Of a DNA stretch of 64,000 bases, positions 1 through 64,000 are shown in pieces. Both the position numbers and the translations under genes were made by a program. Numbering within the stretch: the stretch's first letter is position 1; every line of letters begins with the position of its first letter. The notes under the pieces were generated by a model, which worked only from the letters and a program-made list of their open reading frames with translations, had not been told where the DNA came from and did not search any database. Source of the DNA: Chamaelirium japonicum (Eukaryota > Streptophyta > Magnoliopsida > Liliales > Melanthiaceae); assembly GCA_947650365.1 (NCBI GenBank), contig CANTAL010000028.1:620001-684000 (forward strand), given 5' to 3'.

Positions 1-448
1 ATTCATACAATCCATTCTAATTCTTTCACACGATCCATTCTAATTCATTCGTACGATCCATTCTAATTCATTCGTACAATCCATTCTATTTCATTCGTAC
101 GATCCATTCTTACTCATTCTTATGATCCATTCTAATTCATTCATATGATCCATTCTAATTCATTCGTACGATCCATTCTAATTCATTCGTACGATCCATT
201 CTAATTCATTCGTACGATCCATTCTAATTCATTCGCACGAATGTATCTATTCTAGTTCATTCGTACGATCCATTCTAATTCATTCGTACGATCCATTCTA
301 ATTCATTCGCACGATCCATTCTAATTCATTCATACGATCCATTCTAATTCATTCATACGATCCATTCTAATTCATTCATACGATCCATTCTAATTCATTC
401 GTACGATCCATTCTAATTCATTCGTACAATCTATTCTAATTCATTCGT
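1..448 (+). repeat. Forward block 1
   Basis: Starts inside a monomer at the window edge. It holds a TTCTTTCACACG variant near 21, CTATTTC and CTTACTC variants near 86-115 and one 28-bp unit near 232 with CTAGTTC. It ends at a J1 switch (442-455). Confidence 0.93.
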
Positions 449-496
449 ACGAATGGATACATTCGTGTGAATGAATTAGAATCGATCGTACGAATG
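449..496 (-). repeat. Short reverse block after J1
   Basis: About two reverse monomers beginning GAATGGATACATTCGTGTG, the usual right flank of J1, then cut off at AATGCCATTC. Elsewhere this flank runs for hundreds of bases, so this copy is truncated. Confidence 0.9.
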
Positions 497-949
497 CCAT
501 TCTAATTCATTCGTACGATCCATTCTAATTCATTCGTACAATCCATTCTAATTCATTCGCACGAATGTATCCATTCTAGTTCATTCGTACGATCCTTTCT
601 AATTCATTCGTACGATCCATTCTAATTCATTCGCACGATCCATTCTAATTCATTTGTACGATCCATTCTAATTCATTCATACGATCCATTCTAATTCATT
701 CGTACGATCCATTCTAATTCATTCGTCAGATCCATTCTAATTCATTCGTACGATCCATTCTAATTCATTCGTACGATCCATTCTAATTCATTCGCACGAA
801 TGTATCCATTCTAATTCATTCGTACGATCCATTCTAATTCATTCGTACGATCCATTCTAATTCATTCGCACGATCCATTCTAATTCATTCGTACGATCAA
901 TTCTAATTCATTCGCACGAATGTATCCATTCTAATTCATTCGTACGATC
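497..949 (+). repeat. Forward block 3
   Basis: Near-consensus monomers with 28-bp units near 558, 797 and 917 and an unusual GTCAGATCC monomer near 726. It ends at J4 (946-956, GATCTTGAATT). Confidence 0.93.
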
Positions 950-950
950 T

Positions 951-1117
951 TGAATTAGAATGGATCGTACGAATGAATTAGAATGGATACCTTTGTGCAT
1001 ATGAATTTGAATGGATCGTACGAATGAATTAGAATGGATCATATTAATGAATTATAATGGATCGTACGAATGAATTAGAATGGATACATTCGTGCGAATG
1101 AATTAGAATGGATCGTG
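951..1117 (-). repeat. Left arm of K2 palindrome 1
   Basis: Carries the marker words ACCTTTGTGCATATG (989) and CATATTAATG, which recur as a set elsewhere in the window. Ends at GTGCAC (1115-1120). Confidence 0.93.
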
Positions 1118-1223
1118 CACGAATGTATCCATTCTAATTCATTCGTACGATCCATTCTAATTCATTAATATGATCCATTCTAATTCATTCGTACGATCCA
1201 TTCTAATTCATATGCACAAAGGT
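989..1223. repeat. Large imperfect palindrome centred on GTGCAC
   Basis: From ACCTTTGTGC at 989 to its complement GCACAAAGGT at 1214-1223, the two sides are inverted copies about the centre at 1117/1118. The left side has one extra monomer. The cassette is the mirror image of the one at 33961-34195, where the extra monomer is on the right. Confidence 0.88.
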
Positions 1224-1282
1224 ATCCATTCTAATCCATTCGTAGGATCCATTCTAATCCATTCGTACGATCCAGTCTAATT
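1118..1282 (+). repeat. Right arm of K2 palindrome 1
   Basis: Mirror of the preceding block: ATTAATATG, then ATGCACAAAGGT (to 1223). The left arm is one monomer (23 bp) longer than the right. It ends in a diverged switch, CTAATTGATCGTTCG. Confidence 0.92.
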
Positions 1283-2149
1283 GATCGTTCGAATTAATTA
1301 GAATGGATACATTCGTGCGAATGAATTAGAATGGATTGTATGAATGAATTAGAATAGATCGTGCTAATGAATTAGAATTGATCGAACGAATGAATTAGCA
1401 TGGATCGTGCTAATGAATTAGAATGGAACGTACGAATGAATTAGAATGGATCGTGTGAAAGAATTAGAATGGATTGTATGAATGAATTAGCATGAATTAG
1501 AATGGATCGTACGAATAAATTAGAATGGATCGTATGAAAGAATTAGAATGGATCGTATGAATGAATTAGAATGGATACATTCGTGTGAATGAATTAGAAT
1601 GGATTGTATGAATGAATTAGAATAGATTTTGTGAATGAATTAGAACTGATCGTACGAATGAATTAGAATGGATACATTCGTGCGAATGAATTAGAATGGA
1701 TTGTATGAATGAATTAGAATGGATCCTATGAATGAATTAGAATGGATCGTACGAATGAATTAGAATGGATACATTCGTGCGAATGAATTAGAATTGATCG
1801 TACGAATGAATTAGAATGGATCGTGCGAATGAATTAGAATGGATCGTACGAATGAATTAGAATGGATACATTCGTGCGAATGAATTAGAATGGATACATT
1901 CGTGCGAAAGAATTAGAATAGATCGAATGGATACATTCGTGCGAATGAATTAGAATGGATCGTACAAATGAATTAGAATGGATCGTACGAATGGATTAGA
2001 ATGGATTGTACGAATGAATTAGAATGGATCCTACTAATGAATTAGAATGGATCGTGTGAAAGAATTATAATGGATTGTATAAATGAATTAGAATGGATCG
2101 TATGAATGAATTAGAATGGTTCGTGCGAATGAATTCGAATGGATCGTAC
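1283..2149 (-). repeat. Reverse block 6
   Basis: Contains the TTAGCATGG / GGAACGTACG / CGTGTGAAAG series near 1395-1460, many 28-bp units (GGATACATTCGTGCG) and GAACTGATCG near 1650. It ends at K1 (GAATTC at 2131 and 2150). Confidence 0.93.
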
Positions 2150-2155
2150 GAATTC
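2131..2155. repeat. K1 junction, orientation p
   Basis: Two GAATTC sites flank GAATGGATCGTAC. Reverse monomers lie to the left and forward monomers to the right. Same orientation at 23935, 27938, 35899, 41430, 45792 and 55843; opposite orientation at 15212, 16226, 37761 and 53136. Confidence 0.92.
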
Positions 2156-2857
2156 ATTCTAATTCATTCATAAAATCCATTCTAATTCTTTCACACGATC
2201 CATTCTAATTCATTCGTACGTTCCATTCTAATTCATTAGCACGATCCATGCTAATTCATTCGTTCAATCAATTCTAATTCATTAGCACGATCCATTCTAA
2301 TTCATTCATACGATCCATTCTAATTCATTCGCACGATCCATTCTAATTCATTCATACAATCCATTCTAATTCTCTCACACGATCCATTCTAATTCATTCA
2401 TAGGATCCATTCTAATTCATTCGTACAATTTATTCTATTTCATTCGTACGATCCACTCTTACTCATTCGTATGATCCATTCTAATTCATTCGGACAAATG
2501 TATCCATTCTAATTTATTCGTACGATCCATTCTAATTCATTCCTACGATCCATTCTAATTCATTCGTAAGATCCATTCTAATTCATTCGTACGATCCATT
2601 CAAATTCATTCGTACGATCCATTCTAATTCATTCGTACGATCCATTCTAATTCATTCGTACGATCCATTCTAATTCATTCATACGATCTATTCTAATTCA
2701 TTCATACAATCCATTCTAATTCTTTCACACGATCCATTCTAATTCATTCGTACGATCCATTCTAATTCATTCGCACAATCCATTCTATTTCATTCGTACG
2801 ATCCATTCTTACTCATTCGTATGATCCATTCTAATTCATTCGCACGAATGTATCCAT
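2150..2857 (+). repeat. Forward block 7
   Basis: Opens with the K1 right flank: TTCTTTCACACG, ACGTTCC, ATTAGCACGATCCATGC, CGTTCAATCAATTC. A CTATTTC / CTTACTC pair follows twice. Ends at J3 (2854). Confidence 0.93.
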
Positions 2858-3344
2858 AATGGATCATACGAATGAGTAAGAATGGATCGTACGAATGAAA
2901 TAGAATGGATTGTGCGAATGAATTAGAATGGACCGTACGAATGAATTAGAATGGATACATTCGTGCGAATGAATTAGAATGGACCGTACGAATGAATTAG
3001 AATGGATACATTCGTGCGAATGACTTAGAATGGATCGGACGAATGAATTAGAATGGATCGTACGAATGAATTAGAATGGATCGTACGAATAAATTAGAAT
3101 GGATACATTCGTCCGAATGAATTAGAATGGATCATACGAATGAGTAAGAATGGATCGTACGAATGAAAAAGAATAGATTGTACGAATGAATTAGAATGGA
3201 TCCTATGAATGAATTAGAATGGATCGTGTGAAAGAATTAGAATGGATTGTATGAATGAATTAGAATGGATCGTGCGAATGAATTAGAATGGATCGTACGA
3301 ATGAATTAGAATGGATCGTGCTAATGAATTAGAATGGATCGTAT
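2858..3344 (-). repeat. Reverse block 8
   Basis: Starts with the J3 right flank GGATCATACGAATGAGTAAG and a GAAATAG monomer. It contains two GGACCGTACG monomers. Ends at a K1-like junction keeping only one GAATTC (3345-3350). Confidence 0.92.
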
Positions 3345-3422
3345 GAATTCATTCTAATTCATTCATACAATCCATTTTAATTCTTTCACACGATCCATTC
3401 TAATTCATTCGTACGTTCCATT
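3345..3422 (+). repeat. Short forward block 9
   Basis: About 3.4 monomers of the K1 right flank (TTCTTTCACACG, ACGTTCC), cut inside CATT and joined to a reverse monomer. This looks like a deletion joint. Confidence 0.9.
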
Positions 3423-3840
3423 AATGAATTAGAATGGATCGTACGAATGAATTAGAATAGCTCATACGAATGAATTAGAATGAATCGTATGAATGAATTA
3501 GAATGGTTACATTCGTGCGAATGAATTAGAATAGATCGTACGAATGAATTAGAATGGATCGTACGAATAAATTAGAATGGATCGTGGGAATGAATTAGAA
3601 TGGATCATACGAATGAATTAGAATGGATCCACCGAATGAGTTAGAATGGATCATACGAATGAATTAGAATGGATTGTACGAATGAATTAGAATGGATTGT
3701 GCGAATGAATTAGAATGGATCGTTTGAATGAATAAGAATGGATCGTACGAATGAATTAGAATGGATCGTGCGAATGAATTAGCATGAATCGTACGAATGT
3801 ATTAGAATGGATTGTACGAATGAATTAGAATGAATCGTAC
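3423..3840 (-). repeat. Reverse block 10, inverted copy of 11.6-12.0 kb
   Basis: Rare variants read as the complement of the forward block at 11619: CACCGAATGAG here (near 3630) matches CTCATTCGGTG near 11816; AGCTCATACG near 3468 matches CGTATGAGCT near 11990; TTAGCATGAATCG near 3780 matches CGATTCATGCTAA near 11664. It ends at K3 in orientation q (3828-3841). Confidence 0.9.
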
Positions 3841-5326
3841 GATCTATTCTAATTCATTCGTACGATCCATTCTAATTCATTCGCATGAATGTATCCATTC
3901 TAGTTCATTCGTACGATCCATTCTAATTCATTCGTACGATCCATTCTAATTCATTCGTACGATCCATTCTAATTCATTCGTATGATCCATTCTAATTAAT
4001 TCGTATGATTCATTCTAATTCATTCGTACGATCCATTCTAATTCATTCATACAATCCATTCTAATTCATTCGCACGAATTTGTCCATTCTAATTCATTCG
4101 TATGATCCATTCTTCTTCATTCACACGATCCAGTCTAATGGATTCGCACGATCCATTCTAATTCATTCGCACGAATGTATCCATTCTAATTCATTCATAC
4201 GATCCATTCTAATTCATTCGTACGATCCATTCTAATTCATTTGCACAAATGTATCCATTCTAATTCATTCGTACGATCCATTCTAATTCATTCGTACGAT
4301 CCATTCTAATTCATTCATATGATCCATTCTAATTCATTGTACGATCCATTCTAATTCACTCATACGATCCATTCTAATACATTCATACGAACCATTCTAA
4401 TTCATTTGCACGAATATATCCATTCTAATTCATTCGTATGATCCATTCTAATTCCTTCGTACGATCCATTCTAATTCATTCGTACGATCCATTCTAATTC
4501 ATTCGTATGATCCATTCTAATTCATTTGTACGATCCATTCTAATTCATTCGCACGATCCATTCTAATTCATTCGTACGATCCATTCTAATTCTTTCACAC
4601 AATCCATTCTAATTCATTCGTACGATCCATTCAAATTCATTCGCACGATCCATTCTAATTCATTCGTACGATCCATTCTAATTCATTCATACGATCCATT
4701 CTAATTCATTCGTACGATCCATTCTAATTCATTCGCACAAATGTATCCATTCTAATTCATTCGTACAATCCATTCTAATTCATTCGAACGATCCATTCTA
4801 ATTCATTCGTACGATCCATTCTAATTCATTCGCACGATCTGTTCTTATTCATTCGCACAATCCATTCTAATTCATTCGCACGAATTTATCCATTCTAATT
4901 TATTCGTACGATCCATTCTAATTCATTCGTACGATCCATTCTAATTCATTCGTTTGATCCATTCTAATTAATTCGTATGATCCATTCTAATTCATTCGTA
5001 CGATCCATTCTAATTCATTCATACAATCCATTCTAATTCATTCGTACGATCCATTCTAATTCACTCATACGATCCATTCTAATACATTCATACGATCCAT
5101 TCTAATTCATTTGCACGAATATATCCATTCTAATTCATTCGTACGATCCATTCTAATTCCTTCGTACGATCAATTCTAATTCATTCGTACGATCTATTCT
5201 AATTCATTCGTACGATCCATTCTAATTCATTCGTACGATCCATTCTAATTCCTTCGTACGATCCATTCTAATTCATTCGTACGATCCATTCTAATTCATT
5301 CATACAATCTATTCTAATTCATTCGT
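3841..5326 (+). repeat. Forward block 11
   Basis: Begins with K3 flank monomers. Contains two copies of the cassette CACTCATACG / AATACATTC / TTTGCACGAATATATCC (4350-4420, 5060-5130) and a CGATCTGTTCTTATTC variant at 4834. Ends at J1 (5320-5333). Confidence 0.93.
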
Positions 5327-5530
5327 ACGAATGGATACATTCGTGTGAATGAATTAGAATGGATCGTACGAATGAGTAAGAATGGATCGTACGAATGAAA
5401 TAGAATGGATTGCACGAATGAATTAGAATGGATCGTACGAATGAATTAGAATGGATCGTGTGACAGAATTAGAATGGATCGTACGAATGAATTAGAATGG
5501 ATCGTGCGAATGAATTAGAATAGATCGTGC
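4570..5530. repeat. Local duplication, copy 1 (offset 3,052)
   Basis: GATCTGTTC at 4836 and J1 at 5320 recur at 7888 and 8372, both exactly 3,052 bp downstream. Flanks match from about 4570 to 5530, including the polarity switch. Confidence 0.85.
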
Positions 5531-5557
5531 GAATGAATTAGAATGAATTAGAATGGA
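5327..5557 (-). repeat. Reverse block 12
   Basis: J1 right flank: GATACATTCGTGTG, GAGTAAG, GAAATAG, GATTGCACG, then CGTGTGACAG. Ends in GGATCTATTC, where half-monomers of both polarities abut. Confidence 0.92.
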
Positions 5558-8378
5558 TCTATTCTAATTCATTCGTACGATCTATTCTAATTCATTCGCA
5601 CGATCTGTTCTTATTCATTCGCACAATCCATTCTAATTCATTCGTACGATCCATTCTAATTCATTCGTACCATCCATTCTAATTCATTCGTATGATCCAT
5701 TCTAATTAATTCGTATGATCCATTCTAATTCACTCATACGATCCATTCTAATACATTCATGTATCCATTCTAATCCATTCGTCCGATCCATTCTAATTCA
5801 TTCGTACGATCCACTCTAATTCATTCGCACAAATGTATCCATTCTAATTCATTCGTACGATCCATTCTAATTCATTCGCACGATCTATTCTAATTCATTC
5901 GTACGATCCATTCTAATTCATTCGTACGATCCATTCTAATTCATTCGTATGATCCATTCTAATTAATTCGTACGATCCATTCTAATTCATTCGCACTATC
6001 CATTCTAATTCATTCGCACTATCCATTCTAATTCATTCGCACTATCCATTCTAATTCATTTGTACAATCCATTCTATTTCATTCATACGATCCATTCTTA
6101 CTCATTGGTACGATCCATTCTAATTCATTCGCACGAATGTATCCATTCTATTTCATTCATACGATCCATTCTTACTCATTGGTACGATCCATTCTAATTC
6201 ATTCGCACGAACGTATCCATTCTAATTCATTCGTATGAATCCATTCTAATTCATTCGTACAATCCATTCTATTTCATTCGTATGATCCATTCTTACTCAC
6301 TCGTATGATCCATTCTAATTCATTCGCACGAATGTATCCATTCTAAATCATTCGTACGATCCAGTCTAATTCATTCATACGATCCATTCTAAATCATTCG
6401 TACAATCCATTCTATTTCATTCGTACGATCAATTCTAATTCATTAGCACGATCCATTCTAATTCATTCGTACGATCCATTCAAATTCATTCGCACGAACC
6501 ATTCTAATTCGTTCGTACAATCCATTCTATTTCATTCGTACGATCCATTCTAATTCATTCGTACGATCCATTCTAGTTCATTCATATGATCCATTCTAAT
6601 TTATTTGTACGATCCATTCTAGTTCATTCATATGATCCATTCTAGTTCATTCATATGATCCATTCTAATTCATTCGCACGATCCATTCTAATTCATTCGT
6701 ACGATCCATTCTAGTTCATTCATAAGATCCATTCTAGTTCATTCATATGATCCATTCTAATTCATTCGCACGATCCATTCTAATTCATTCGTATGATCCA
6801 TTCTAGTTCATTCATATGATCCATTCTAATTTATTTGTACGATCCATTCTGATTCATTCGCACAAATGTATCCATTCTAATTCATTCGTACGATCCATTC
6901 AAATTCATTCGCACGAACCATTCTAATTCGTTCGTACAATCCATTCTATTTCATTCGTACGATCCATTCTTACTCATTCGTATGATCCATTCTAATTCAT
7001 TCACACGAATGTATCCATTCTAGTCCATTCGTACGATCCATTCTAATCCATTCGTACGATCCATTCTAATTCATTCGCATGAATGTAACCATTCTAATTC
7101 ATTCATTTGATCCATTCTAATTCATTCGTACGATCCATTGTAATTCATTCGTCCGATCCATTCTAATTCATTCGCACGAATGTATCCATTCTAAACCATT
7201 CATACGATCCATTCTAATTTATTCGTACGATCCATTCTAATTCATTCGTAAGATCCATTCTAATTCATTCGTACGATCCATTCTAATTCATTCGTACGAT
7301 CCATTCTAATTCATTCGTAAGATACATTTTAATTCATTCGTACGATCCATTCTAATTCATTCGTACGATCCATTGTAATTCAGTCGCACGAATGTATCCA
7401 TTCTTGTTCATTCGTACGATCCATTCTAATTCATTCGTACGATCCATTCTAATTCATTCGCACGATCCATTCTAATTCATTCGTACGATCCATTCTAATT
7501 CATTCATACGATCCATTCTAATTCTTTCGTACGATCCATTCTAATTCATTCGCACAAATGTATCCATTCTAATTCATTCGTGTGATACATTCTAATTCAT
7601 TCGCACGATCCATTCTAATTCATTCGTACGATCCATTCTAATTCTTTCACACGATCCATTCTAATTCATTCGTACGATCCATTCTAATTCATTCGCATGA
7701 TCCATTCTAATTCATTCGTACGATCCATTCTAATTCATTCATACGATCCATTCTAATTCATTCGTACGATCCATTCTAATTCATTCGCACAAATGTATCC
7801 ATTCTAATTCATTCGTACGATCCATTCTAATTCATTCGCACGATCCATTCTAATTCATTCGTACGATCCATTCTAATTCATTCGCACGATCTGTACTTAT
7901 TCATTCGCACAATCCATTCTAATTCATTCGCACGAATTTATCCATTCTAATTCATTCGTACGATCCATTCTAATTCATTCGTACGATCCATTCTAATTGA
8001 TTCGTATGATCCATTCTAATTAATTCGTATGATCCATTCTAATTCATTCGTACGATCCATTCTAATTCATTCATACAATCCATTCTAATTCATTCGTACG
8101 ATCCATTCTAATTCACTCAAACGATCCATTATAATACATTCATACGATCCATTCTAATTCATTTGCATGAATATATCCATTCTAATTCATTCGTACGATC
8201 CATTCTAATTCCTTCGTACGATCCATTCTAATTCATTCGTACGATCTATTCTAATTCTTTCGTACGATCCATTCTAATTCATTCGTACAATCCATTCAAA
8301 TTCCTTCGTACGATCCATTCTAATTTATTCGTACGATCCATTCTAATTCATTCGTACAATCTATTCTAATTCATTCGT
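5558..8378 (+). repeat. Forward block 13, longest single-polarity run
   Basis: About 2.8 kb without a switch. Notable parts: three consecutive CGCACTATCC monomers (5990-6055); CTTACTCATTGGTACG twice near 6100-6190; a run of CTAGTTCATTCATATG monomers (6560-6830); TAAACCATTC near 7192. 6.2-7.4 kb resembles 31.16-31.9 kb. Ends at J1 (8372-8385). Confidence 0.94.
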
Positions 8379-8582
8379 ACGAATGGATACATTCGTGTGA
8401 ATGAATTAGAATGGATCGTACGAATGAGTAAGAATGGATCGTACGAATGAAATAGAATGGATTGCACGAATGAATTAGAATGGATCGTACGAATGAATTA
8501 GAATGGATCGTGTGAAAGAATTAGAATGGATCGTACGAATGAATTAGAATGGATCGTGCGAATGAATTAGAATAGATCGTAC
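7622..8582. repeat. Local duplication, copy 2 (offset 3,052)
   Basis: Partner of 4570-5530. Differences are single substitutions (CTGTACTTATTC for CTGTTCTTATTC; GTGTGAAAG for GTGTGACAG), with no net length change between the markers checked. Confidence 0.85.
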
Positions 8583-9587
8583 GAATGAATTTGAATGGAT
8601 CGTACGAAGGAATTAGAATGGATCGTACGAATGAATTAGAATGGATATATTCGTGCAAATGAATTAGAATGGATCATACGAATGAGTAAGAATGGATCGT
8701 ACGAATGAAATAGAATAGATTGTACGAATGAATTAGAATGGATCCTACGAATGAATTAGATTAGATCGTGTGAAAGAATTAGAATGGATTGTATGAATGA
8801 ATTAGAATGGATCGTACGAATGAATTAGAATGGATCATACGAAGGAATTAGAATGGATCGTGCGAATGATATAGAATGGATCGTACGAATGAATTATAAT
8901 AGATCGTACGAATGAATTAGAATGGATCGTACGAAGGAATTAGAATGGATCGTACGAATGAATTAGAATGGATATATTCGTGCAAATGAGTTAGAATGGA
9001 TCGTATGAATGTATTAGAATGGATCGTACGAATGAATTAGAATGGATCGTGTGAAAGAATTAGAATGGATCGTACGAATGAATTAGAATGGATCGTGCGA
9101 ATGAATTAGAATGGATCGTACGAATGAATTAGAATGGATACATTTGTGTGAATGAATTAGAATGGATCGTAAGAATAAATTAGAATGGATCGTATGAATG
9201 AATTAGAATGGATACATTCGTGCGACTGAATTAGAATGGTTCGGACGAATGAATTAGAATGGATCGTACGAATGAATTAGAATGGATCAAATGAATGAAT
9301 TAGAATGGTTACATTCATGCGAATGAATTAGAATGGATCGTACAAATGGATCAGAATGGATCGTATGAATGGATTAGAATGGATACATTCGAGCGAATGA
9401 ATTAGAATGGATCGTACGAATGAATTAGAATGGATCGTACGAATGGATTAGAATGGATCCTACGAATGGATTAGAATGGATAACTTTGTGCATATAAATT
9501 AGAATGGATCGTACGAATGAATTTGAATGGATCATATTAATGAATTAGAATGGATCGTACGAATGAATTATAATGGATACATTCGTG
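8379..9587 (-). repeat. Reverse block 14
   Basis: J1 right flank, then CGAAGGAATT monomers and a GATATATTCGTGCAAATG unit. The marker series GGATCAAATG, GGTTACATTCATGCG (9307), ACATTCGAGCG and AACTTTGTGCATATA leads into K2 (9585-9590). Confidence 0.93.
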
Positions 9588-10907
9588 CACGATCCATTCT
9601 AATTCATTCCCACGAATGTATCCATTCTAATTCATTCATACGATCCATTCTAATTCATTCGTACGATCAATTCTAAATCATTCGTAAGATCCATTCTAAT
9701 TCATTCGTACGATCCATTCTAATTAATTCATACAATCCATTCTAATTCTTTCACACGATCCATTCTAATTCATTCGCACGATCCATTCTAATTCATTCGT
9801 ACGATCCATTCTAATTCATTCGTACGATCCATTCTAATTCATTCGTCCGATCCATTCTAATTCATTTGCACGAATGTATCCATTCTAATTCATTCGTACG
9901 ATCCATTCTAATTCATTCGTACGATCCATTCTAATTCATTCGTAAGATCCATTCTAATTCATTCGTACGATCCATTCTAATTCATTCATACAATCCAATC
10001 TAATTCTTTCACACGATCCATTCTAATTCATTCGCATGATGCATTCTAATTCATTCGTACGATCCATTCTAATTCATTCGTACGATCCATTCTAATTCAT
10101 TCGCACGAATGTATCCATTCTAATTCATTCGTACGATCCATTATAATTCATTCGTACGATCCATTCTAATTCATTCGCACAAATGTATCCATTCTAATTC
10201 ATTCGTACGATCCATTCTAATTCATTCGTACGATTAGTTCTAATTCATTCACAAAATCAATTCTAATTCATTCATACGATCCATTATAATTCATTCACAC
10301 GAATGTATCCATTCTAATTCATTCATACGATCCATTCTAATTCATTCGTAACGATCCATTCTAATTCACTCATACGATCCATTCTAATACATTCATACGA
10401 TCCATTCTAATTCATTTGCACGAATATATCCATTCTAATTCATTCGTACGATCCATTCTAATTCCTTCGTATGATCCATTCTAATTCATTCGTACGATCC
10501 ATTCTAATTCATTCGCACGATCCATTCTAATTCATTCGTACGATCCATTCTAGTTCATTCATATGATCCATTCTAATTTATTTGTACGATCCATTCTGAT
10601 TCATTCGCACAAATGTATCCATTCTAATTCATTCGTACGATCCATTCTAATTCATTCGCACGATCCATTCTAATTCATTCGTACGATCCATTCTAATTCA
10701 TTCGCACGATCTGTTCTTATTCATTCGCACAATCCATTCTAATTCATTCGCTCGAATGTATCCATTCTAATTCATTCGTACGATCCATTCTAATTCGTTC
10801 GTACGATCCATTCTAATTCATTCGTATGATCCATTCTAATTCATTCCTATGATCTATTCTAATTCATTCGCTCGAATATATCCATCCATTCTAAGTCATT
10901 CGTACGA
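9588..10907 (+). repeat. Forward block 15
   Basis: Starts at K2. The complement of the GTGCATATG marker is missing here, so this palindrome copy is truncated. Contains the CACTCATACG cassette near 10366 and CGATCTGTTC near 10708. Ends at a J2 palindrome. Confidence 0.92.
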
Positions 10908-10919
10908 TCGTACGAATGA
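10896..10919. repeat. J2 palindrome, 24 bp perfect
   Basis: Perfect self-complement centred on 10907/10908 with core CGTACGATCGTACG. An extra G follows the next CGTACG on the right, the asymmetric mark of orientation p. Confidence 0.93.
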
Positions 10920-11617
10920 ATTAGAATGGATCGTACGGAATGAATTAGAATGGATTGTATGAATGAATTAGAATGGATACATTCGTGCGAATGAATTAGA
11001 ATGGATCATATGAATGAGTAAGAATGGATCGTACGAATGAAATAGAATGGATTGTACGAATGAATTAGAATGGATCGTAAAAATGAATTAGAATGGATCG
11101 TACGAATGAATTAGAATGGATCATACGAATGAGTAAGAATGGATCGTACAAATGAAATAGAATGGATTGTACGAATGAATTAGAATGGATCGTACGAATG
11201 AATTAGAATGGATCGTGTGAAAGAATTAGAATGCATTGTATGAATGAATTAGAATGGATCGTATGAATAAATTAGAATGGATCGTGCGAATGAATTCGAA
11301 TGGATCGCATGATCCATTCGAATAGAATCGATCGTATGAATGAATTAAAATGGATCGTGCGAATGAATTAGAATGGATTGTAGGAATGAATTAGAATGGA
11401 TCGTATGAATGAATTAGAATGGATCGTATGAATGAATTAGAATGGATGGTACGAATGAATTAGAATGGATCATACGAATGAATTAGAATGGATCATACGA
11501 ATGAGTAAGAATGGATCGTACGAATGAAATAGAATAGATTGTACGAATGAATTAGAATGGATACATTCATGCGAATGAATTAGAATGGATCGGACGATTG
11601 AATTAGAATGGATCGTA
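10908..11617 (-). repeat. Reverse block 16
   Basis: J2 right flank (GATTGTATG, GATACATTCGTGCG, GAGTAAG, GAAATAG). Contains micro-inversion 11294-11323. Ends CGGACGATTG then K3 (11614-11627). Confidence 0.92.
11294..11323. repeat. Micro-inversion hairpin M
   Basis: Perfect 13-bp inverted arms (ATTCGAATGGATC and its complement) around GCAT: a forward half-monomer inside a reverse block. Same orientation at 13738 and 38578; opposite, with spacer ATGC, at 12753, 23113 and 40608. Confidence 0.92.
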
Positions 11618-48860: not shown

Positions 48861-48861
48861 A

Positions 48862-53141: not shown

Positions 53142-53782
53142 GTACGATCCATTCGAATTCATTCGCACGATCCATTCTAATTCATTCATATGATCCATTC
53201 TAATTCATTCGTACGATCCATTCTAATTCATATGCACAAAGGTATCTATTCTAATCCATTCGTAGGATCCATTCTAATTCATTCGTACGATCCATTCTAA
53301 TTCATTCGCTCGAATGTATCCATTCTAATCCATTCGTACGATCCTTTCTAATCCATTCGTACGATCCATTCTAATTCATTCGCATGAATGTAACCATTCT
53401 AATTCATTCGCATGAATGTAACCATTCTAATCCATTCACACGATCCATTCTAATTCATTCGTACGATCCATTCTAATTCATTCGTATGATCCATTCTAAT
53501 TCATTCATATGATCCATTCTAATTCATTCGTACGATCCATTCTAATTCATTCGCACGATCCATTCTAATTCATTCATAGGATCCATTCTAATTCATTCAT
53601 ACGATCTATTCTAATTCTTTCGCACGAACGTATCCATTCTAATTCATTCGCACGAATGTATCCATTCTAATTCATTCGTACGATCCATTCTAATTCATTC
53701 GCACGATCCATTCTAATTCATTCGTATGATCAATTCTAATTCATTCGCAAGAATGTATCCATTCTAATTCATTCGTACGATC
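53142..53782 (+). repeat. Forward block 72
   Basis: ATGCACAAAGGTATC near 53231 without a palindrome partner nearby, CTAATCC monomers, GTAACC units, CATAGGATCC, CACGAACG. Ends at J4 p (53779-53789). Confidence 0.91.
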
Positions 53783-55860
53783 CTGTATTAGAATGGATCG
53801 TACGAATGAATTAGAATGGATACCTTTGTGCATATGAATTAGAATGGATCGTACGAATGAATTAGAATGGATCATATTAATGAATTAGAATGGATCGTAC
53901 GAATGAATTAGAATGGATACATTCGTGCGAATGATTTAGAATGGATCGTGCGAATCCATTAGACTGGATCGTGCGAATGAATAAGAATGGATCATACGAA
54001 TGAATTAGAATGGATCGTACGAATTTATTAGAATGGATACATTCGTGCGAATGAATTAGAATGGATTGTATGAATGAATTAGAATGGATCGTACGAATGA
54101 ATTAGAATGGATCATACGAATTAATTAGAATGGATCATACGAATGAATTAGAATGGATCGTACGAATGAATTAGAATGGATCGTACGAATGAACTAGAAT
54201 GGATCGTACGAATGAACTAGAATGGATACATTCGTGCGAATGAATTAGAATGGATCGTACAAATGAATTATAATGGATCGTACGAATGAATTAGAATGGA
54301 TCTTACGAATGAATTAGATTGGATCGTACGAATGAATTAGAATGGATCGTACGAATGAATTAGAATGGATACATTCGTGCGAATGAATTGGAATGGATCG
54401 GACGAATGAATTAGAATGGATCGTACGAATGAATTAGAATGGATCGTACGAATAAATTAGAATGGATACATTCGTCCGAATGAATTAGAATGGATCATAC
54501 GAATGAGTAAGAATAGATCGTACGAATGAAATAGAATAGATTGTACGAATGAATTAGAATGGATTCGTACGAATGAATTAGAATGGATACATTCGTGCAA
54601 ATGAATTAGAATGGATCGTACCAATAAGTAAGAATGGATCGTACGAATGAAATAGAATGGATTGTGCGAATGAATTAGAATGGATCGTACGAATAAATTA
54701 GAATGGATCGTGTGAAAGAATTAGAATGGATTGTATGAATGAATTAGAATAGATCGTATCAATGAATTAGAATGGATCGTACGAATGAATTAGAATGGAT
54801 ACATTCGTGCGAATGAATTAGAATGGATACATTCGTGCGAAAGAATTAGAATAGATCGTATGAATGAATTAGAATGGATCCTATGAATGAATTAGAATGG
54901 ATCGTGCGAATGAATTAGAATGGATCGTACGAATGAATTAGAATAGATCGTACGAATGAATTAGAATGGACCGTACGAAGAAATTAGAATGGATCGTACG
55001 AATGAATTAGAATGGATATATTCATGCAAATGAATTAGAATGGATCGTATGAATGTATTAGAATGGATCGTATGAGTGAATTAGAACGGATCGTACGAAT
55101 GAATTAGAATGGATTGTATGAATGAATTAGAATGGATCGTACGAATGAATTAGAATGGATCATATAGAATGGATCATACGAATGAATTAGAATGGATCGT
55201 ACGAATGAATTAGAATGGATCGTACGAATGAATTAGAATGGATACATTCGTGCGAATGAATTAGAATGGATTGTGCGAATGAATAAGAACAGATCGTGCG
55301 AATGAATTAGAATGGATCGTACGAATGAATTAGAATAGATCGTGCGAATGAATTAGAATGGATCGTACGAATGAATTAGAATGGATACATTTGTGCGAAT
55401 GAATTAGAATGGATCGTACGAATGAATTAGAATGGATCGTATGAATGAATTAGAATGGATCGTACGAATGAATTAGAATGGATCGTGCGAATGAATTAGA
55501 ATGGATCGTATGAATGAATTAGAATGGATCGTGTGAAAGAATTAGAATGGATCGTACGAATGAATTAGAAAGGATCGTGCGAATGAATTATAATGTATCG
55601 TACGAATGAATTAGAATGGATCATGCTAATGAATTAGAATTGATCGAACGAATGAATTAGCATGGATCGTGCTAATGAATTAGAATGGATCGTACGAATG
55701 AATTAGAATGGATCGTGCGAATGAATTAGAATGGATCGTACGAATGAATTAGAATGGATACATTTGTGCGAATGAATTAGAATGGATCGTACGAATGAAT
55801 TAGAATGGATCGTATGAATGAATTAGAATGGATCGTGCGAATGAATTCGATTGGATCGTA
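53783..55860 (-). repeat. Reverse block 73
   Basis: ACCTTTGTGCATATG near 53821, ATCCATTAGACTGG near 53956, GAACTAG pair near 54190-54215, GGATTCGTACG near 54563, a CATATAGAATGG partial monomer near 55161, TAAGAACAG near 55283. Ends at K1 (55843-55867, insert GATTGGATCGTAC). Confidence 0.92.
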
Positions 55861-57942
55861 CGAATTCATTCTAATTCATTCATACAATCCATTCTAATTC
55901 TTTCACACGACCCATTCTAATTCATTCGTACGTTCCATTCTAATTCATTGGCACGATCCATGCTAATTCATTCATTCGATCAATTCTAATTCATTAGCAC
56001 GATCCATTCTAATTCATTCGTACGATCCATTCTAATTCATTCGCACGATCCATTCTAATTCATTCATAGGATCCATTCTAATTCATTCATACGATCTATT
56101 CTAATTCATTCGCACGAATGTATCCATTCTAATTCATTCGCACGAATGTATCCATTCTAATTCATTCGTACGATCCATTCTAATTCATTCGTACGATCCA
56201 TTCTAATTCATTCGTACGATCCATTCTAATTCATTCATACGATCTATTCTAATTCATTCATACAATCCATTCTAATTCTTTCACACGATCCATTCTAATT
56301 CATTCGTACGATCCATTCTAATTCATTCGCACAATCCATTCTATTTCATTCGTACGATCCATTCTTACTCATTGGTACGATCCATTCTAATTCATTCGCA
56401 CGAATGTATCCATTCTAATTCATTCGTACGATTCCATTCTAATTCATTCGTACAATCTATTCTATTTCATTCATACGATCCATTCTAACTCATTCGTATT
56501 ATCCATTCTAATTCATTCGGACGAATGTATCCATTCTAATTTATTCGTACGATCCATTCTAATTCATTCGTACAATCCATTCTAATTCATTCGTACGATC
56601 CATTCTAATTCATTCGTCCGATCCATTCTAATTCATTCGTACGAATGTATCCATTCTAATTCATTCATACGATCCATTCTAATTCATTCGTACGATCCAT
56701 TCTAATTCATTCGTAAGATCCATTCTAATTCATTCGTACGATCCATTCTAATTCATTCGTATGATCCATTCTAATTCATTCGCATGAATGTATCCATTCT
56801 AGTTCATTCGTACGATCCATTCTAATTCATTCGTACGATCCATTCTAATTCATTCGCACGATCCATTCTAATTCATTCGTACGATCCATTCTAATTCATT
56901 CATACGATCCATTCTAATTCATTCGTACGATCCATTCTAATTCATGCGCACAAATGTATCCATTCTAATTCATTCGTACGATCCATTCTAATTCATTCGC
57001 ACGATCCATTCTAATTCATTCGTACGATCCATTCTAGTTCATTCGCACGATCTGTTCTTATTCATTCGCACAATCCATTCTAATTCATTCGCACGAATGT
57101 ATCCATTCTAATTCATTCGTACGATCCATTCTAATTCATTCTTACGATCCATTCTAATTCATTCGTATGATCCATTCTAATTAATTCGTATGATCCATTC
57201 TAATTCATTCGTACGATCCATTCTAATTCATTCATACAATCCATTCTAATTCATTCGCACGAATGTATCCATTCTAATTAATTCGTACGATCCATTCTAA
57301 TTCATACGTATGATCTATTCTTATTCATTCGCACGATCCAGTCTAATTGATTCGCACGATCCATTCTAATTCATTCGCACGAAAGTATCCATTCTAATTC
57401 ATTCGTACGATCCATTCTAATTCATTAATATTATCCATTCTACTTCATTCGTACGATCCATTCTAATTCATATGCACAAAGGTATCCATTCTAATCCATT
57501 CGTAGGATCCATTCTAATCCATTCGTACGATCCATTCTAATTCATTCGTACGATCCATTCTTATTCATTCGCTCGAATGTATCCATTCAAATCCATTCGT
57601 ATGATCCATTCTAATCCATTCGTACGATCCATTCTATTTCATTCGCATTAATGTAACCATTCTAATTCATTCATTTGATCCATTCTAATTCATTCGTACG
57701 ATCCATTCTAATTCATTCATACGATCCATTCTAATTCATTCGTACGATCCATTCTAATTCATTCATACGATCTATTCTAATTCATTCATACAATCCATTC
57801 TAATTCTTTCACACGATCCATTCTAATTCATTCGTACGATCCATTCTAATTCATTCGCACAATCCATTCTATTTCATTTGTACGATCCATTCTTACTCAT
57901 TCGTATGATCCATTCTAATTCATTCGCACGAATGTATCCATA
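55861..57942 (+). repeat. Forward block 74
   Basis: K1 right flank (CGACCC, ATTGGCACG, CATGC), a CATTGGTACG unit near 56375, CGATTCC near 56431, CGATCTGTTC near 57050, ATGCACAAAGGT near 57471, CTAATCC units. Ends at J3 (57938). Confidence 0.93.
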
Positions 57943-58530
57943 ATGGATCATACGAATGAGTAAGAATGGATCGTACGAATGAAATAGAATGGATTGTGCG
58001 AATGAATTAGAATGGACCGTACGAATGAATTAGAATGGATACATTCATGCGAATGAATTAGAATGGATCGGACGAATGAATTAGAATGGATCGTACGAAT
58101 GAATTAGAATGGATCGTACGAATGAATTAGAATGGATCGTACGAATGAATTAGAATGGATACATTCGTGCGAATGAATTAGAATGGATCGGACGAATGAA
58201 TTAGAATGGATCGTACGAATGAATTAGAATGGATCAAATGAATAAATTAGAATGGTTACATTCATGTAAATGAATTAGAATGGATCGTACGAATGGATTA
58301 GAATGGATCGTACGAATGGATTAGAATGGATACATTCGAGCGAATGAATTAGAATGGATCATACGAATGAATTAGAATGGATCGTACGAATGGATTAGAA
58401 TGGATCCTACGAATGGATTAGAATGGATACCTTTGTGCATATGAATTAGAATGGATCGTACGAATGAATTAGAATGGATCATATTAATGAATTAGAATGG
58501 ATCGTACGAATGAATTAGAATGGATACATT
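57943..58530 (-). repeat. Reverse block 75
   Basis: J3 flank (GAGTAAG, GAAATAG, GGACCGTACG), then from about 58.09 kb the series shared with 46.9 kb: CGGACG, TCAAATG, GGTTACATTCATGTAA (58254), GAGCG, ACCTTTGTGCATATG (58429). Confidence 0.92.
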
Positions 58531-58531
58531 C

Positions 58532-58699
58532 TGCACGATCCATTCTAATTCATTCGCACGAATGTATCCATTCTAATTCATTCGTACGATCCATTCTAAT
58601 TCATTAATATGCTCCATTCTAATTCATTCGTACGATCCATTCTAATTCATATGCACAAAGGTATCCATTCTAATTCATTCATACGATCCATTCTAATTC
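58532..58699 (+). repeat. Inverted segment inside the 830-bp unit, third copy
   Basis: GCACAAAGGT at 58653-58662; ATATGCTCC for ATATGATCC. Begins CATTCTGCACG like 47344 and ends at J4 q (58695-58705). Confidence 0.92.
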
Positions 58700-60045
58700 A
58701 GGATCGTACGAATGAATTAGAATGGATACATTCGTGCGAATGAATTAGAATTGATCGTACGAATGAAATAGAATGGATCGTGCGAATGAATTAGAATTGA
58801 TCGTACGAATGAATTAGAATGGATCGTACGAATGAACTAGGATGGATACATTCGTGCGAATGAATTAGAATGGATCGTACGAATGAATTAGAATGGATCG
58901 TACGAATGAATTAGAATGGATCTTACGAATGAATTAGAATGGATCGTACGAATGAATTAGAATGGATCGTACGAATGAATTAGAATGGATATATTCGTGC
59001 GAATGAATTAGAATGGATCGGACGAATGAATTAGAATGGATCGTACGAATGAATTAGAATGGATCAAATGAATGAATTAGAATGGTTACATTCATGCGAA
59101 TGAATTAGAATGGATCGTACGAATGGATTAGAATGGATCGTACGAATGGATTAGAATGGATACATTCGAGCGAATGAATTAGAATGGATCGTACGAATGA
59201 ATTAGAATGGATCGTACGAATGGATTAGAATGGATCGTACGAATGAACTAGAATGGATACATTCGTGCGAATGAATTAGAATGGATCGTACGAATGAATT
59301 AGAATGGATCGTACGAATGAATTAGAATGGATCTTACGAATGAATTAGAATGGATCGTACGAATGAATTAGAATGGATCGTACGAATGAATTAGAATGGA
59401 TACATTCGTGCGAATGAATTAGAATGGATCGTACGAAGAAATTAGAATGGATCGTACGAAGGAATTAGAATGGATCGTACGAATGAATTAGAATGGATAT
59501 ATTTGTGCAAATGAATTAGAATGGATCGTATGAATGAATTAGAATGGATCGTATGAGTGAATTAGAACGGATAGTACGAATGAAGTAGAATGGATCGTAT
59601 GAATGAATTAGAATGGATACATTCGTGTGAATTAATTAGAATGGATCGTATGAATGAATTAGAATAGATTGTGCGAATGAATTAGAATGGATCGTACGAA
59701 TGAATTAGAATGGATACATTCGTGCGAATAAATTAGAATGGATTGTATGAATGAATTAGAATGGATCGTACGAATGAATTAGAATGGGTCGTACGAATGA
59801 ATTAGAATAGATTGTGCGAATGAATTAGAATGGATCGTATGAATGAATTAGAATGGATCGTACGAAGGAATTAGAATGGATCGTACGAATGAATTAGAAT
59901 GGATCGTACGAATGAATTAGAATGGATCGTACGAAGGAATTAGAATGGATCGTACGAATGAATTAGAATGGATCGTACGATTGAATTAGAATGGATCATA
60001 CGAATGAGTAAGAATGGATCGTATGAATGAATTAGATTGGATCGT
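58700..60045 (-). repeat. Reverse block 77
   Basis: Copy of 47511-48833, one monomer longer. GGTTACATTCATGCG at 59084, GAACGGATAGTACG near 59567. Ends at K6 (60039-60052). Confidence 0.92.
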
Positions 60046-60072
60046 ACGATCCATTCTAATTCATTAGCATGG
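60046..60072 (+). repeat. Single forward monomer, second copy
   Basis: Copy of 48834-48860, between K6 and CATTAGCA-TGGATCG-TGCTAATG (60062-60084). Confidence 0.9.
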
Positions 60073-60073
60073 A

Positions 60074-60632
60074 TCGTGCTAATGAATTAGAATGGAATAT
60101 ACGAATGAATTAGAATGGATCGTAGAATGGATCGTACGAATGAATTAGAACGGATCGTACGAATGAATTAGAATAGATCATAGGAATGAATTAGAATGGA
60201 TCGTGCAAATGAATTAGAATGGATACATTCGTGCGAATGAATTAGAATGGATCGTGCGAATGAATTAGAATGGATCGTACGAATGAATTAGAATGGATAT
60301 ATTTGAACGAATAAATTAGAATGGATCATACGAATGAATTAGAATGGATCGTACGAATGAATTAGAATGGATAGTGCGAATGAATTAGAATCGATCGTAC
60401 GAATGAATTAGAATGGATCGTACGAATGAATTAGAATGGATCATACGAATGAGTAAGAATGGATCGTACGAATGAATTTGAATGGATCGTACGAATGAAT
60501 TAGAATGGATCGTACGAATAAATTAGAATGGATACATTCGTCCGAATGAATTAGAATGGATCATACGAATGAGTAAGAATGGATCGTACGAATGAAATAG
60601 AATAGATTGTATGAATGAATTAGAATGGATCC
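60074..60632 (-). repeat. Reverse block 79
   Basis: Copy of 48862-49421: TCGTAGAATGG partial monomer near 60121, GATATATTTGAACG near 60297. Ends at K4 (60627-60643, with GTATG for GTACG). Confidence 0.92.
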
Positions 60633-61556
60633 TAGTATGATCCATTCTAATTCATTCGTACGATCCATTCTAATTCATTCATACAATCCATTCTAATTCT
60701 TTCACACGATCCATTCTAATTCATTCGTACGAATCTATTCTAATTCATTCGTGCAATCCATTCAATTTCATTCGTACGATCCATTCTTACTCATTCGTAC
60801 GATCCATTCTAATTCATTCACACGAATGTATCCATTCGTACGAATGAATTAGAATAGATTGTACGAATGAATTAGAATGGATCGTACGAAGGAATTAGAA
60901 TAGATCGTACTAATGAATTAGAATGGATCGTACGAATGAATTGGAATAGATCGTTCGAATGAATTAGAATGGTTCGTACGAAGAAATTAGAATGGATCGT
61001 ACGAATGAATTAGAATAGATATATTCGTGCAAACGAATTAGAATGGATCGTATGAATGTATTAGAATGGATCGTGCGAATGAATTAGAATGGATCGTACG
61101 AATGAATTAGAATGGATCGTACGAATGAACTAGAATGGATACATTCGTGCGAATGAATTAGAATGGATCGTACGAATGAATTAGAATGGATCGTACGAAT
61201 GAATTAGAATGGATCGTACGAATGAATTAGAATAGATCGTACGAATGAATTAGAATGGATCGTACGAATGAATTAGAATGGATACATTCATGCGAATGAA
61301 TTAGAATGGATCGGACGAATGAATTAGAATGGATCGTACGAATGAATTAGAATGGATCAAATGAATGAATTAGAATGGATCGTTCGAATAAATTAGAATG
61401 GATACATTCGTCCGAATGAATTAGAATGGATCGTACGAATGAATTAAAATGGATCGTACGAATGAATTAGAATAGATACATTCGTACGAATGAATTAGAA
61501 TGGATCGTACGAATGAATTAGAATGGATCGTACGGAATGAATTAGAATGGATATAT
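60303..61556. repeat. 1.2-kb higher-order unit in segmental copy 2, first repeat
   Basis: TTGAACGA at 60303 and 61557 are 1,254 bp apart (copy 1 of the segment: 1,231); the next is at 62788 (1,231; earlier 1,208). Both intervals are one monomer longer than in segmental copy 1. Confidence 0.88.
60633..60839 (+). repeat. Forward block 80
   Basis: Copy of 49422-49627, including the 24-bp CGAATCTATTC unit and CAATTTC. Ends at J1 q (60833-60846). Confidence 0.92.
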
Positions 61557-61886
61557 TTGAACGAATAAATTAGAATGGATCAGACGAATGAATTAGAATG
61601 GATCGTACGAATGAATTAGAATGGATAGTGCGAATGAATTAGAATCGATCGTATGAATGAATTAGAATGGATCGTACGAATGAATTAGAATGGATCATAC
61701 GAATGAGTAAGAATGGATCGTACGAATGAATTAGAATGAATCGTACGAATGAATTAGAATGGATCGTACGAATAAATTAGAATGGATACATTTGTCCGAA
61801 TGAATTAGAATGGATCATACGAATGAGTAAGAATCGATCGTACGAATGAAATAGAATAGATTGTACGAATGAATTAGAATGGATCC
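60840..61886 (-). repeat. Reverse block 81
   Basis: Copy of 49628-50651, one monomer longer; CGTACG replaces the TCTTACC monomer of copy 1 (near 49995). Ends at K4 (61881-61897). Confidence 0.92.
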
Positions 61887-62092
61887 TAGTACGATCCATT
61901 CTAATTCATTCGTACGATCCATTCTAATTCATTCATACAATCCATTCTAATTCTTTCAAACGATCCATTCAAATTCATTCGTACGATCCATTCTAATTCA
62001 TTCGTGCAATCCATTCTATTTCATTCGTACGATCCATTCTTACTCATTCGTACGATCCATTCTAATTCATTCACACGAATGTATCCATTCGT
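61887..62092 (+). repeat. Forward block 82
   Basis: Copy of 50652-50857, with TTCTTTCAAACG for TTCTTTCACACG. Ends at J1 q (62086-62099), here a perfect palindrome. Confidence 0.92.
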
Positions 62093-64000
62093 ACGAATGA
62101 ATTAGAATAGATTGTACGAATGAATTAGAATGGATCGTACGTAGGAATTAGAATGGATCGTACGAATGAATTAGAATGGATCGTACGAATAAATTAGAAT
62201 AGATCGTACGAATGAATTAGAATGGATCGTACGAATGAATTAGAATGGATTATACGAATGAATTAGAATGGATATATTCGTGCAAATGAATTAGAATGGA
62301 TCGTATGAATGTATTAGAATGGATCGTGCGAATGAATTAGAATGGATCGTACGAATGAATTAGAATGGATCGTACGAATGAACTAGAATGGATACATTCG
62401 TGCGAATGAATTAGAATGGATCGTACGAATGAATTAGAATGGATCGTACGAATTAATTAGAATGGATCTTACGAATGAATTAGAATGGATCGTACGAATG
62501 AATTAGAATGGATCGTATGAATGAATTAGAATGAATACATTCATGCGAATGAATTAGAATGGATCGGACGAATGAATTAGAATGGATCGTACGAATGAAT
62601 TAGAATGGATCAAATGAATGAATTTGAATGGATCGTTCGAATAAATTAGAATGGATACATTCGTCCGAATGAATTAGAATGGATCGTACGAATGAATTAG
62701 AATGGATACATTCGTACGAATGAATTAGAATGGATCGTACGGAATGAATTAGAATGGATCGTACGCAATGAATTAGAATGGATATATTTGAACGAATAAA
62801 TTAGAATGGATCATACGAATGAATTAGAATGGATCGTACGAATGAATTAGAATGAATAGTGCGAATGAATTAGAATCGATCGTACGAATGAATTAGAAGG
62901 GATCGTACGAATGAATTAGAATGGATCATACGAATGAGTAAGAATGGATCGTACGAATGAATTAGAATGGATCGTACGAATGAATTAGAATGGATCGTAC
63001 GAATAAATTAGAATGGATACATTCGTCCGAATGAATTAGAATAAATCATACGAATGAGTAAGAATGGATCGTACGAATGAAATAGAATAGATTGTACGAA
63101 TGAATTAGAATGGATGCTACGAATGAATTAGAATGGATCGTGTGAAAGAATTAGAATGGATTGTATAAATGAATTAGAATGGATCGTTTGAATGAATTAG
63201 AATGGATCGTACGAATGGATTAGAATGGATCGTACGAATGAATTAGAATGGATCGTACGAATGAACTAGAATGGATACATTCGTACGAATGAATTAGAAT
63301 GTATCGTACGAATGAATTAGAATGGATCGTACGAATGAATTAGAATGGATCTTACGAATGAATTAGAATGGATCGGACGAATGAATTAGAATGGATCGTA
63401 CGAATGAATTAGAATAGATCGTACGAATGAATTAGAATGGATCGTACGAAGGAATTAGAATGGATCGTACGAATGAATTAGAATGGATCGTATGAATGAA
63501 TTAAAATGGATACATTCGTGCGAATGAATTAGAATGGATTGTACGAATGAATTAGAATGGATCGTACGAATGAATTAGAATGGATCATGTGAAAGAATTA
63601 GATTGGATTGTATGAATGAATTAGAATGGATCATATGAATGAATTAGAATGGATACATTCGTGCGAATGAATTAGAATGGATCGTACGAATGAATTAGAA
63701 TGGATTGTACGAATGAATTAGAATGGATCGTATGAATGAATTATAATGGTTACATTCTTGCGAATGAATTAGAATGGATCGTACGAATGGATTAGAATGG
63801 ATCGTACGAATGGATTAGAATGGATACATTCGAGCGAATGAATTAGAATGGATCGTACGAATGAATTAGAATGGATCGTACGAATGGATTAGAATGGATC
63901 CTACGAATGGATTTGAATGGATACCTTTGTGCATATGAATTAGAATGGATCGTACGAATGAATTAGAATGGATCATATGAATGAATTAGAATGGATCGTG
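62093..64000 (-). repeat. Reverse block 83, runs off the window
   Basis: Copy of 50858 onward: GATATATTTGAACG near 62783, GATGCTACG near 63114, GGTTACATTCTTGCG at 63748, ACCTTTGTGCATATG near 63923. The window ends inside a monomer. Confidence 0.93.

Follow-up and report, generated by a model that had tools for sequence, protein, structure and literature searches.

The stretch of DNA examined here (the window) is the 64-kb segment C40:620001-684000, i.e. part of contig C40 in the 1.52-Gb assembly of Chamaelirium japonicum, and it is occupied throughout by a satellite array of two short monomers that switches orientation 83 times. The switch points, or joints, are not placed at random. They recur as junction classes, most of which are found in both orientations together with their flanks, and again on other contigs. 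We account for this by a layered scheme, to which we give a probability of roughly two in three: the birth of a joint is rare, the joint is inherited once formed, the segments carrying it are amplified as direct copies, and homologous exchange in monomer register, blind to orientation, moves them about.

Junction classes recur in both orientations

The array was parsed with a two-orientation hidden Markov model (HMM), with two monomers, A of 23 bp (GAATGAATTAGAATGGATCGTAC) and B of 28 bp (GAATGAATTAGAATGGATACATTCGTGC), each allowed both ways. B differs from A by 5 inserted bp plus an A to G change (...GGATCGTAC against ...GGATACATTCGTGC). The model finds ~2335 copies of A and ~372 of B with a mismatch of 5.8% over the window, and a tally of units gives 2195 of 23 bp and 352 of 28 bp. 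The lowest fit over 100 bp is 0.85, and no non-satellite stretch was seen inside the window. The + orientation makes up 50.9% of the bases, the median distance between switches is 572 bp (one switch per ~770 bp overall), and jumps of phase within one orientation number 32 among ~2700 monomers.

The original prediction, made from the sequence alone, named the recurring junctions J1-J4, K1-K3 and a hairpin M, without coordinates, and the junction classes were therefore defined anew, by clustering 50-bp cores on both strands with at most 6 edits. This placed 78 of the 83 switches in 10 multi-member classes and left 5 singletons, which bears out the claim that the switch points are non-random and recur; the predicted span (442..62099) also agrees with the first and last HMM switches, near 451 and 62089. 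A stricter rule, under which both flanks must match at high identity over 80 bp or more, yields 12 multi-member classes with 72 of the 83 switches and 11 singletons, although this flank mark is also reached by 11.5% of random anchor pairs.

Each junction had further been predicted to occur as its reverse complement. A word scan for the class cores on both strands (at most 2 edits), which is independent of the HMM, finds seven classes in both orientations, with the following forward/reverse matches: C0 (word Ja) 11/6, C1 7/7, C2 3/4, C3 7/1, C5 2/5, hairpin M 1/2 and C11 1/1. The core of class C4 is near-palindromic, and its flanks give both orientations. The prediction does not hold within the window for classes C6 and C7 (4/0 each), both of which lie inside recent duplications; C6 is found reversed elsewhere on contig C40 and C7 on contig C200. 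On the class trees, the fewest orientation changes are 6 for C0, 3 each for C1 and C2, 1 for C3 and 2 each for C4 and C5, a total of 17. At least 5 of those in the C0 tree are forced by well-supported (starred) branches, and its orientation labels are scattered like shuffled ones.

Flanks support descent of the joints

Among same-class pairs with close cores (0-2 edits), the shorter flank extension has a median of 177 bp in direct (n = 111) and 157 bp in inverted pairs (n = 100), against 39 bp (n = 149) and 38 bp (n = 139), respectively, for core-matched random anchors, recent duplicate copies being kept in this comparison. With recent duplicates removed, the fraction of flanks with 95% identity or more declines in direct pairs from 0.69 for 25-75 bp to 0.16 for 300-400 bp (control, 0.13 to 0.05) and in inverted pairs from 0.64 to 0.12 (control, 0.11 to 0.04). 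The two curves nearly coincide. The flanks are thus reversed along with the junction, as had been predicted. The test suggested with that prediction, same-class flanks against random neighbours, separates the two clearly for close cores and hardly for looser ones.

The long common flanks within classes support inheritance of the junctions by descent. It could be argued instead that the same monomer positions break repeatedly, in which case the classes would be hotspots and not families, since some joints lie on short monomer palindromes and flanks scarcely exceed control where cores match more loosely (3-6 edits). Such independent recurrence is very improbable, given that close pairs share 100-400 bp beyond the joint in both orientations, in excess of core-matched anchors, and that class words carry changes of their own, for example an additional G in C4.

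Modules are shared about equally in direct and inverted orientation

A gap-penalised self-comparison of the window with all copies kept gives 35 direct and 28 inverted blocks of at least 600 bp, and none in two monomer shuffles. Non-redundant tallies, which leave out copies lying in the 4003-bp duplication as well as the right-hand copy of the 11.2-kb unit (see below), comprise 66 direct and 67 inverted blocks of at least 400 bp and at least 95% identity, with mean identities of 96.46 and 96.30; these cover 67% of the window, and some run gap-free for 1.0-1.6 kb. Exact matches of 40-150 bp are likewise split almost evenly by orientation when the two recent duplications are excluded (direct/inverted, 305/303 at 80-100 bp, 123/107 at 100-120 bp and 58/56 at 120-150 bp). 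We sought a decay of matches with distance and found none beyond the shortest distances, matches being present at all distances and over contigs. Individual modules and their mirror copies are listed in Table 1.

Modules bearing junctions had been predicted to exist both ways, and they do, the longest inverted one carrying three junctions over 1619 bp. The junctions do not define the modules, however: block copies carry 0.684 junctions each, compared with 0.724 +/- 0.046 under random interval placement, and 65 of the 133 blocks (35 of 66 direct, 30 of 67 inverted) hold none. Junctions are passengers; the array itself is what gets shuffled, and the junctions make the shuffling visible.

Most block ends lie in monomer register

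At 85 of 132 ends of direct blocks and 95 of 134 ends of inverted blocks, the copies stay in register beyond the end and keep the same orientation, compared with 19% of random pairs; they continue in opposite orientation at 16% and 17%, respectively, compared with 48%. Both ends are in register in 60 of the 133 blocks. Because the ends are mostly in register and of like orientation, we take them as pointing to homologous exchange and not to random insertion. Site-specific invertible elements would call for a recombinase gene or for defined recombination sites where flipped segments end. No non-satellite stretch was seen in the window, where most block ends are ordinary in-register monomers; a genome-wide recombinase search was not made.

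Non-allelic gene conversion is proposed as a spreading mechanism in the accessible text of PMC12722358, and conversion between arrays purely without crossover would suit the in-register ends, the short blocks and the similar sharing between contigs. Of the 68 junction-bearing blocks, though, 59 hold exactly one junction. A non-crossover tract would be unable to put a single joint into a one-way recipient with register kept to the left and right of it, and crossover, inversion, segmental copying or insertion of circles would be needed as well; it is unlikely that conversion acted alone.

The largest recent copies are direct

Three large recent duplications were identified, all of them direct. 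The 4003-bp tandem unit (Table 1) occurs only once in the sister segment on this scaffold (L044, C40:321001-329000), and its duplication may be either a very recent event or an assembly product. The ~11.2-kb higher-order duplication has copy offsets of 11189, 11212, 11235, 11258 and 11281, rising in exact 23-bp steps that read as single-monomer gains or losses, and its unit continues directly into the next stretch of the scaffold (L024, L025). The third, of at least 60 kb, relates C40:279071-342000 to C40:600001-667000, 321 kb apart (loci L041, L019, L044 and L042 against L022 and the window); identity between the sister segments is 99.85-99.95% in the four stretches compared (27 kb in total), and the match is gone at C40:358001-368000.

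With duplicate copies excluded, blocks of at least 98% identity number 6 direct and 0 inverted at a length of at least 400 bp, and 13 direct and 3 inverted at a length of at least 300 bp. We infer that large copies were made in direct orientation and that stretches of them were flipped afterwards. The part of the original prediction that had modules being copied in inverted orientation stands in so far as inverted copies are present; their making by inverted copying is not borne out, the largest recent duplications being direct.

The same evidence bears on extrachromosomal satellite circles that reinsert by homology in either orientation, which are proposed for this genome in the available part of PMC10264360. 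Circles would explain the orientation blindness, the mixing between contigs and the tandem units (4003 bp, 11.2 kb, and those seen as junction spacings of 1425 and 1231 bp), and short inverted copies of up to 99.2% identity are present. They should, on the other hand, insert both ways from the start, whereas the largest recent copies are direct; we regard this explanation as doubtful.

Table 1. Features of the window, with positions counted from its first base.
Feature	Position	Strand	Details
Uninterrupted satellite array	1..64000	.	monomers A and B; 83 orientation switches; 32 same-orientation phase jumps; HMM
Class C0 (+ to -)	2137..55881		forward 2137, 3332, 11605, 22172, 23941, 27944, 35905, 38935, 41436, 45798, 55849; reverse 3817, 15198, 16212, 37747, 40247, 53122 (word Ja starts)
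Class C1 (- to +)	437..62104		forward 437, 5315, 8367, 19989, 33150, 42759, 45011; reverse 17292, 36992, 46360, 49603, 50833, 60815, 62068
Class C2 (- to +)	938..58713		forward 938, 20442, 53771; reverse 34213, 39161, 47491, 58680
Class C3 (- to +)	2843..57960		forward 2843, 21352, 25054, 26479, 29057, 30482, 57927; reverse 36263
Class C4 (- to +)	10897..41034		at GATC, orientation by flanks; forward 10897, 13341, 15609, 38181; reverse 23494, 27497, 40989
Class C5 (+ to -)	1106..58545		at GTGCAC; forward 1106, 19541; reverse 9565, 18676, 34044, 47322, 58511
Class C6 (+ to -)	25224..30681		25224, 26649, 29227, 30652; one orientation in window
Class C7 (+ to -)	49406..61901		49406, 50637, 60618, 61872; one orientation in window
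Hairpin M (classes C8/C9), forward copy	43459..43491	+
Hairpin M, reverse copies	48844..48876 (-) and 60056-60088
Class C11	21001..36624		forward 21001; reverse 36594
4003-bp direct tandem duplication	23154..31181	+	4025-bp exact match; head to tail
Direct higher-order duplication, ~11.2 kb	46861..64000	+
Longest inverted block, arm 1	37563..39181	+	three junctions
Longest inverted block, arm 2	40034..41652	-	1619 bp, 0 gaps, 96.2%
C2-C5 island	950..1126	+	~176 bp of + within - array; mirror images (~177 bp of - within +) at 34056-34233, 47335-47512, 58524-58701; 661-1282 vs 33902-34523 inverted match, 97.4%, 0 gaps
C4-C0 module	23527..23956	+	429 bp; direct copies at 27530 and 41022; mirror copies 37762-38190 (428 bp), 15213-15618 (405 bp)

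The same joints are found on other contigs

Genome-wide, near-exact monomers number 2,957,248 forward and 2,990,829 reverse (5,948,077 in total), of which 1253 are in the window; if divergence is equal everywhere, extrapolation from the window rate puts the satellite at ~304 Mb of 1.52 Gb, near 20%. We sampled 18 stretches of contigs C40 and C1, one of them without satellite; their 157,838 bases of satellite hold 181 junctions, a density of 11.5 per 10 kb. Of these 181, 159 fit a window class within 3 edits, and 132 within 1. Among artificial joints the corresponding number is 28 of 181, and among non-junction windows 2 of 181. Contig C1 alone contributes 40 fits among 50 junctions, and contigs C60, C100 and C200 add 16 among 18; stretches fetched from contigs C2, C5 and C400 contain no satellite. 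Window 931-10930 recurs at 99.95% in locus L019, and loci L024-L025 contain higher-order copies of window sequence, so that contigs C1, C60, C100 and C200 form the cleaner sample, with 56 of 68 junctions assigned.

Blocks of at least 400 bp are also shared with the window, at densities per 64 kb x 10 kb of 61 for contig C40, 45 for C1, 66 for C200, 50 for C100 and 77 for C60. The non-redundant figure inside the window is 49 per 54 kb x 10 kb (~58 per 64 kb x 10 kb); it omits duplicate copies, whereas the between-contig densities use the whole window. The blocks on other contigs are thus similar in density and identity to those inside it. Their direct/inverted counts are 377/309 on C40, 91/112 on C1, 21/45 on C200, 17/8 on C100 and 5/9 on C60. 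The description of the array as modules shuffled by duplication and inversion fits what is seen in the window; the behaviour is not peculiar to this array, as the same classes occur on contigs C1, C60, C100 and C200 at similar density.

Chimeric or palindromic reads, or collapsed repeats, might in principle have made the switches. Satellites are hard to assemble, and the exact 4003-bp duplication and the 99.9% sister segment may be assembly products. The same joints, however, lie on separate contigs, including one of 137 Mb, with variants of their own, and mixed orientation is reported by the describers of the satellite in PMC10264360, as far as its text was available. An assembly artefact is extremely unlikely to explain the switches.

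An element of the long terminal repeat type, with similar end repeats, was observed inside the satellite ~7 kb to the left of the window (C40 ~607738-613237; L022 7738-10000, L023 1-3237). It carries a Retrotrans_gag open frame (PF03732, E 2.5e-08).

Birth of joints

Only three consensus joints share at least 4 bp, namely TCGTACGA, GATC and AATT, and such joints represent 3.6% of phase pairs. Some C0 members join at TCGTACGA, as do 2 of 3 copies of the tail-to-tail part of hairpin M, and GATC is used head-to-head in class C4 and tail-to-tail at 5556. Palindromic joints account for 3 of the 12 multi-member classes plus single joints, which we read as a preference in a minority and not as a rule.

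Joints formed by fold-back, or palindromic duplication, in which each joint would stem from a local inverted duplication and its arms would be copies of each other, were tested for twice, and a joint's own arms were no more alike than the arms of different joints. The median score of own arms is 122 (n = 81), against 144 (n = 225) between joints. Three C3 members and two other joints do exceed the 95th percentile in one of the tests, but these 5 of 71 are near the 5% expected. Old arms could have been erased by later exchange, and fold-back remains, in our estimate, an improbable origin.

A layered scheme and the points that weigh against it

In the layered scheme that we favour, a new head-to-head or tail-to-tail joint would form only rarely, in part of the classes at a short monomer palindrome (TCGTACGA, GATC) that + and - arrays have in common. 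Once formed, it would be inherited as a fixed marker, a view supported by the long flanks common within classes and by the occurrence of the same classes on other contigs. Segments bearing joints would be amplified in direct orientation, in copies of ~4 kb, ~11 kb and at least 60 kb, which are seen as the largest recent events. Lastly, orientation-blind homologous exchange in monomer register would flip and swap stretches of 0.4-1.6 kb genome-wide, carrying the junctions along as passengers. For this exchange, block ends in register, parity of direct and inverted copies and similar sharing with other contigs are observed; the pathway may be inversion between opposite blocks, interlocus exchange, break-induced copying or reinsertion of circular DNA. 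Amplification and exchange would not follow one another in strict order, because recent copies of at least 98% identity include inverted ones.

Several results weigh against this scheme. Concerning descent, flanks of pairs with looser cores have medians of 38 and 46, against a control of 34. Under lenient affine gaps the contrast is almost gone (211 vs. 189 direct, 221 vs. 206 inverted), because satellites align to one another once monomers may be skipped; this extension does not discriminate and was not retained as a test. The C1 tree has its orientation labels clustered, with 29-39 of 500 shuffles as low. As to birth, the other 9 of the 12 multi-member classes have only 0-3 bp in common at the joint, and an origin of C1 at TCGTACGA would depend on assuming a later loss of 10 bp.

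Concerning exchange, the block counts are interdependent and not separate observations. Parity breaks in single samples, as in the 21 direct against 45 inverted blocks of contig C200, and exact matches of 150-200 bp are more often direct (29) than inverted (19). Single-junction blocks are in register at both ends in only 25 of 59 cases, and 14 of the 32 inverted ones diverge in orientation at an end. Many in-register ends are differences between A and B, which alone stop a gap-free alignment. Inverted copies (327-427 bp, up to 99.2%) make up 11 of the 44 matches of at least 98% found for the right-hand part of the window. Finally, no inversion was caught in the act among the compared copies, and no event producing an inverted copy was seen.

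Identity of the satellite and comparison with known systems

From published features there are strong grounds to infer that the repeat is Chio1/Chio2, the CENH3-bound holocentromere satellite of Chionographis japonica, for which mixed orientation and a share of ~16-17% of a genome of roughly 1.4-1.5 Gb are published (PMC10264360, available in part). Like Chio1/Chio2 in that account, the satellite has monomers of 23 and 28 bp that differ by a 5-bp indel and one substitution, and its arrays run both forward and in reverse. The share near 20% extrapolated above, which assumes equal divergence, is in rough agreement with the published one. Within the tandem consensus, TCGTACGA is taken to be the 8-bp dyad of Chio. 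The minus-strand reading of the monomer contains TTCGTACGA, the 9-bp sequence common to the 23-bp Chio monomer and to Chama of the sister genus, from Chamaelirium luteum (PMC12722358). That source, in the portion available, terms the alternation of Chio frequent; the Chama arrays, unlike the array here, are reported there as consistently oriented, with higher-order structure over hundreds of kilobases.

The 5 bases peculiar to the 28-bp monomer give CATTCG beside CGAATG (e.g. window 1081-1100). They resemble a templated quasi-palindrome insertion, and the 28-bp form may be a fossil micro-switch.

Exact search with the 23-bp unit gave no match in viral_contigs or genome_contigs, and a 4-kb stretch (window 8001-12000) none in plasmids and phages. 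An 18-base word had no match in viral_contigs and 8 single matches in prokaryote contigs, which we take as chance. A full-text literature search for the letters of the unit found no paper.

The closest precedent for a shared junction repertoire is the conserved inversion sites of Tribolium satellites, as presented in the accessible text of PMC13081366. There, as here, a few switch types recur and are intermingled between contigs, the inversion types having thousands of copies at 98-99% similarity. The Tribolium arrays consist mostly of two subarrays, each several kb long, and three types of inversion are named for them, whereas the array here has short runs, at least ten junction classes and modules of 0.4-1.6 kb. 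Of the features of a Tribolium-type macro-dyad, the window thus has the recurrent conserved inversion site types and, with 84 runs in 64 kb, lacks the two near-symmetric subarrays. Primate alpha satellite also combines higher-order duplication with inversion, including large polymorphic inversions in orangutan and macaque arrays (PMC9549924, PMC11062924, both in part). The inversion of human centromere 1, in contrast to the dense switches seen here, is named in a figure legend as the single event in all live centromeres (PMC9549924).

In the literature on Chio, comprising part of the main text of PMC10264360 without its supplements, we did not find junction classes, recurrent joints, module parity or sharing of joints between units. 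The junction repertoire, the direct/inverted parity of modules and the joints common to several contigs were likewise not found reported for Chio in the text examined.

Implications for the holocentromere

For the ~100 megabase-size centromere units, interlocus gene conversion, satellite-breakpoint inversions and circular DNA have been put forward as origins (PMC10264360, in its available part). It is conceivable, though we hold it only tentatively, that the holocentromere is one genome-wide, freely mixing and orientation-randomised pool of modules; that its joints arise at the 8-bp dyad noted as a possible centromere feature; that inversion-prone exchange was part of seeding the units from one joint-bearing source; and that the one-way arrays of the monocentric sister genus are without this engine. 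Shared joints are natural barcodes, and joint-flank haplotypes from each unit could tell units that grew locally and independently from units copied out of a shared pool. The limited sample examined here favours a common, exchanging pool, and the practical value of the joints would be as markers of how such centromeres spread.

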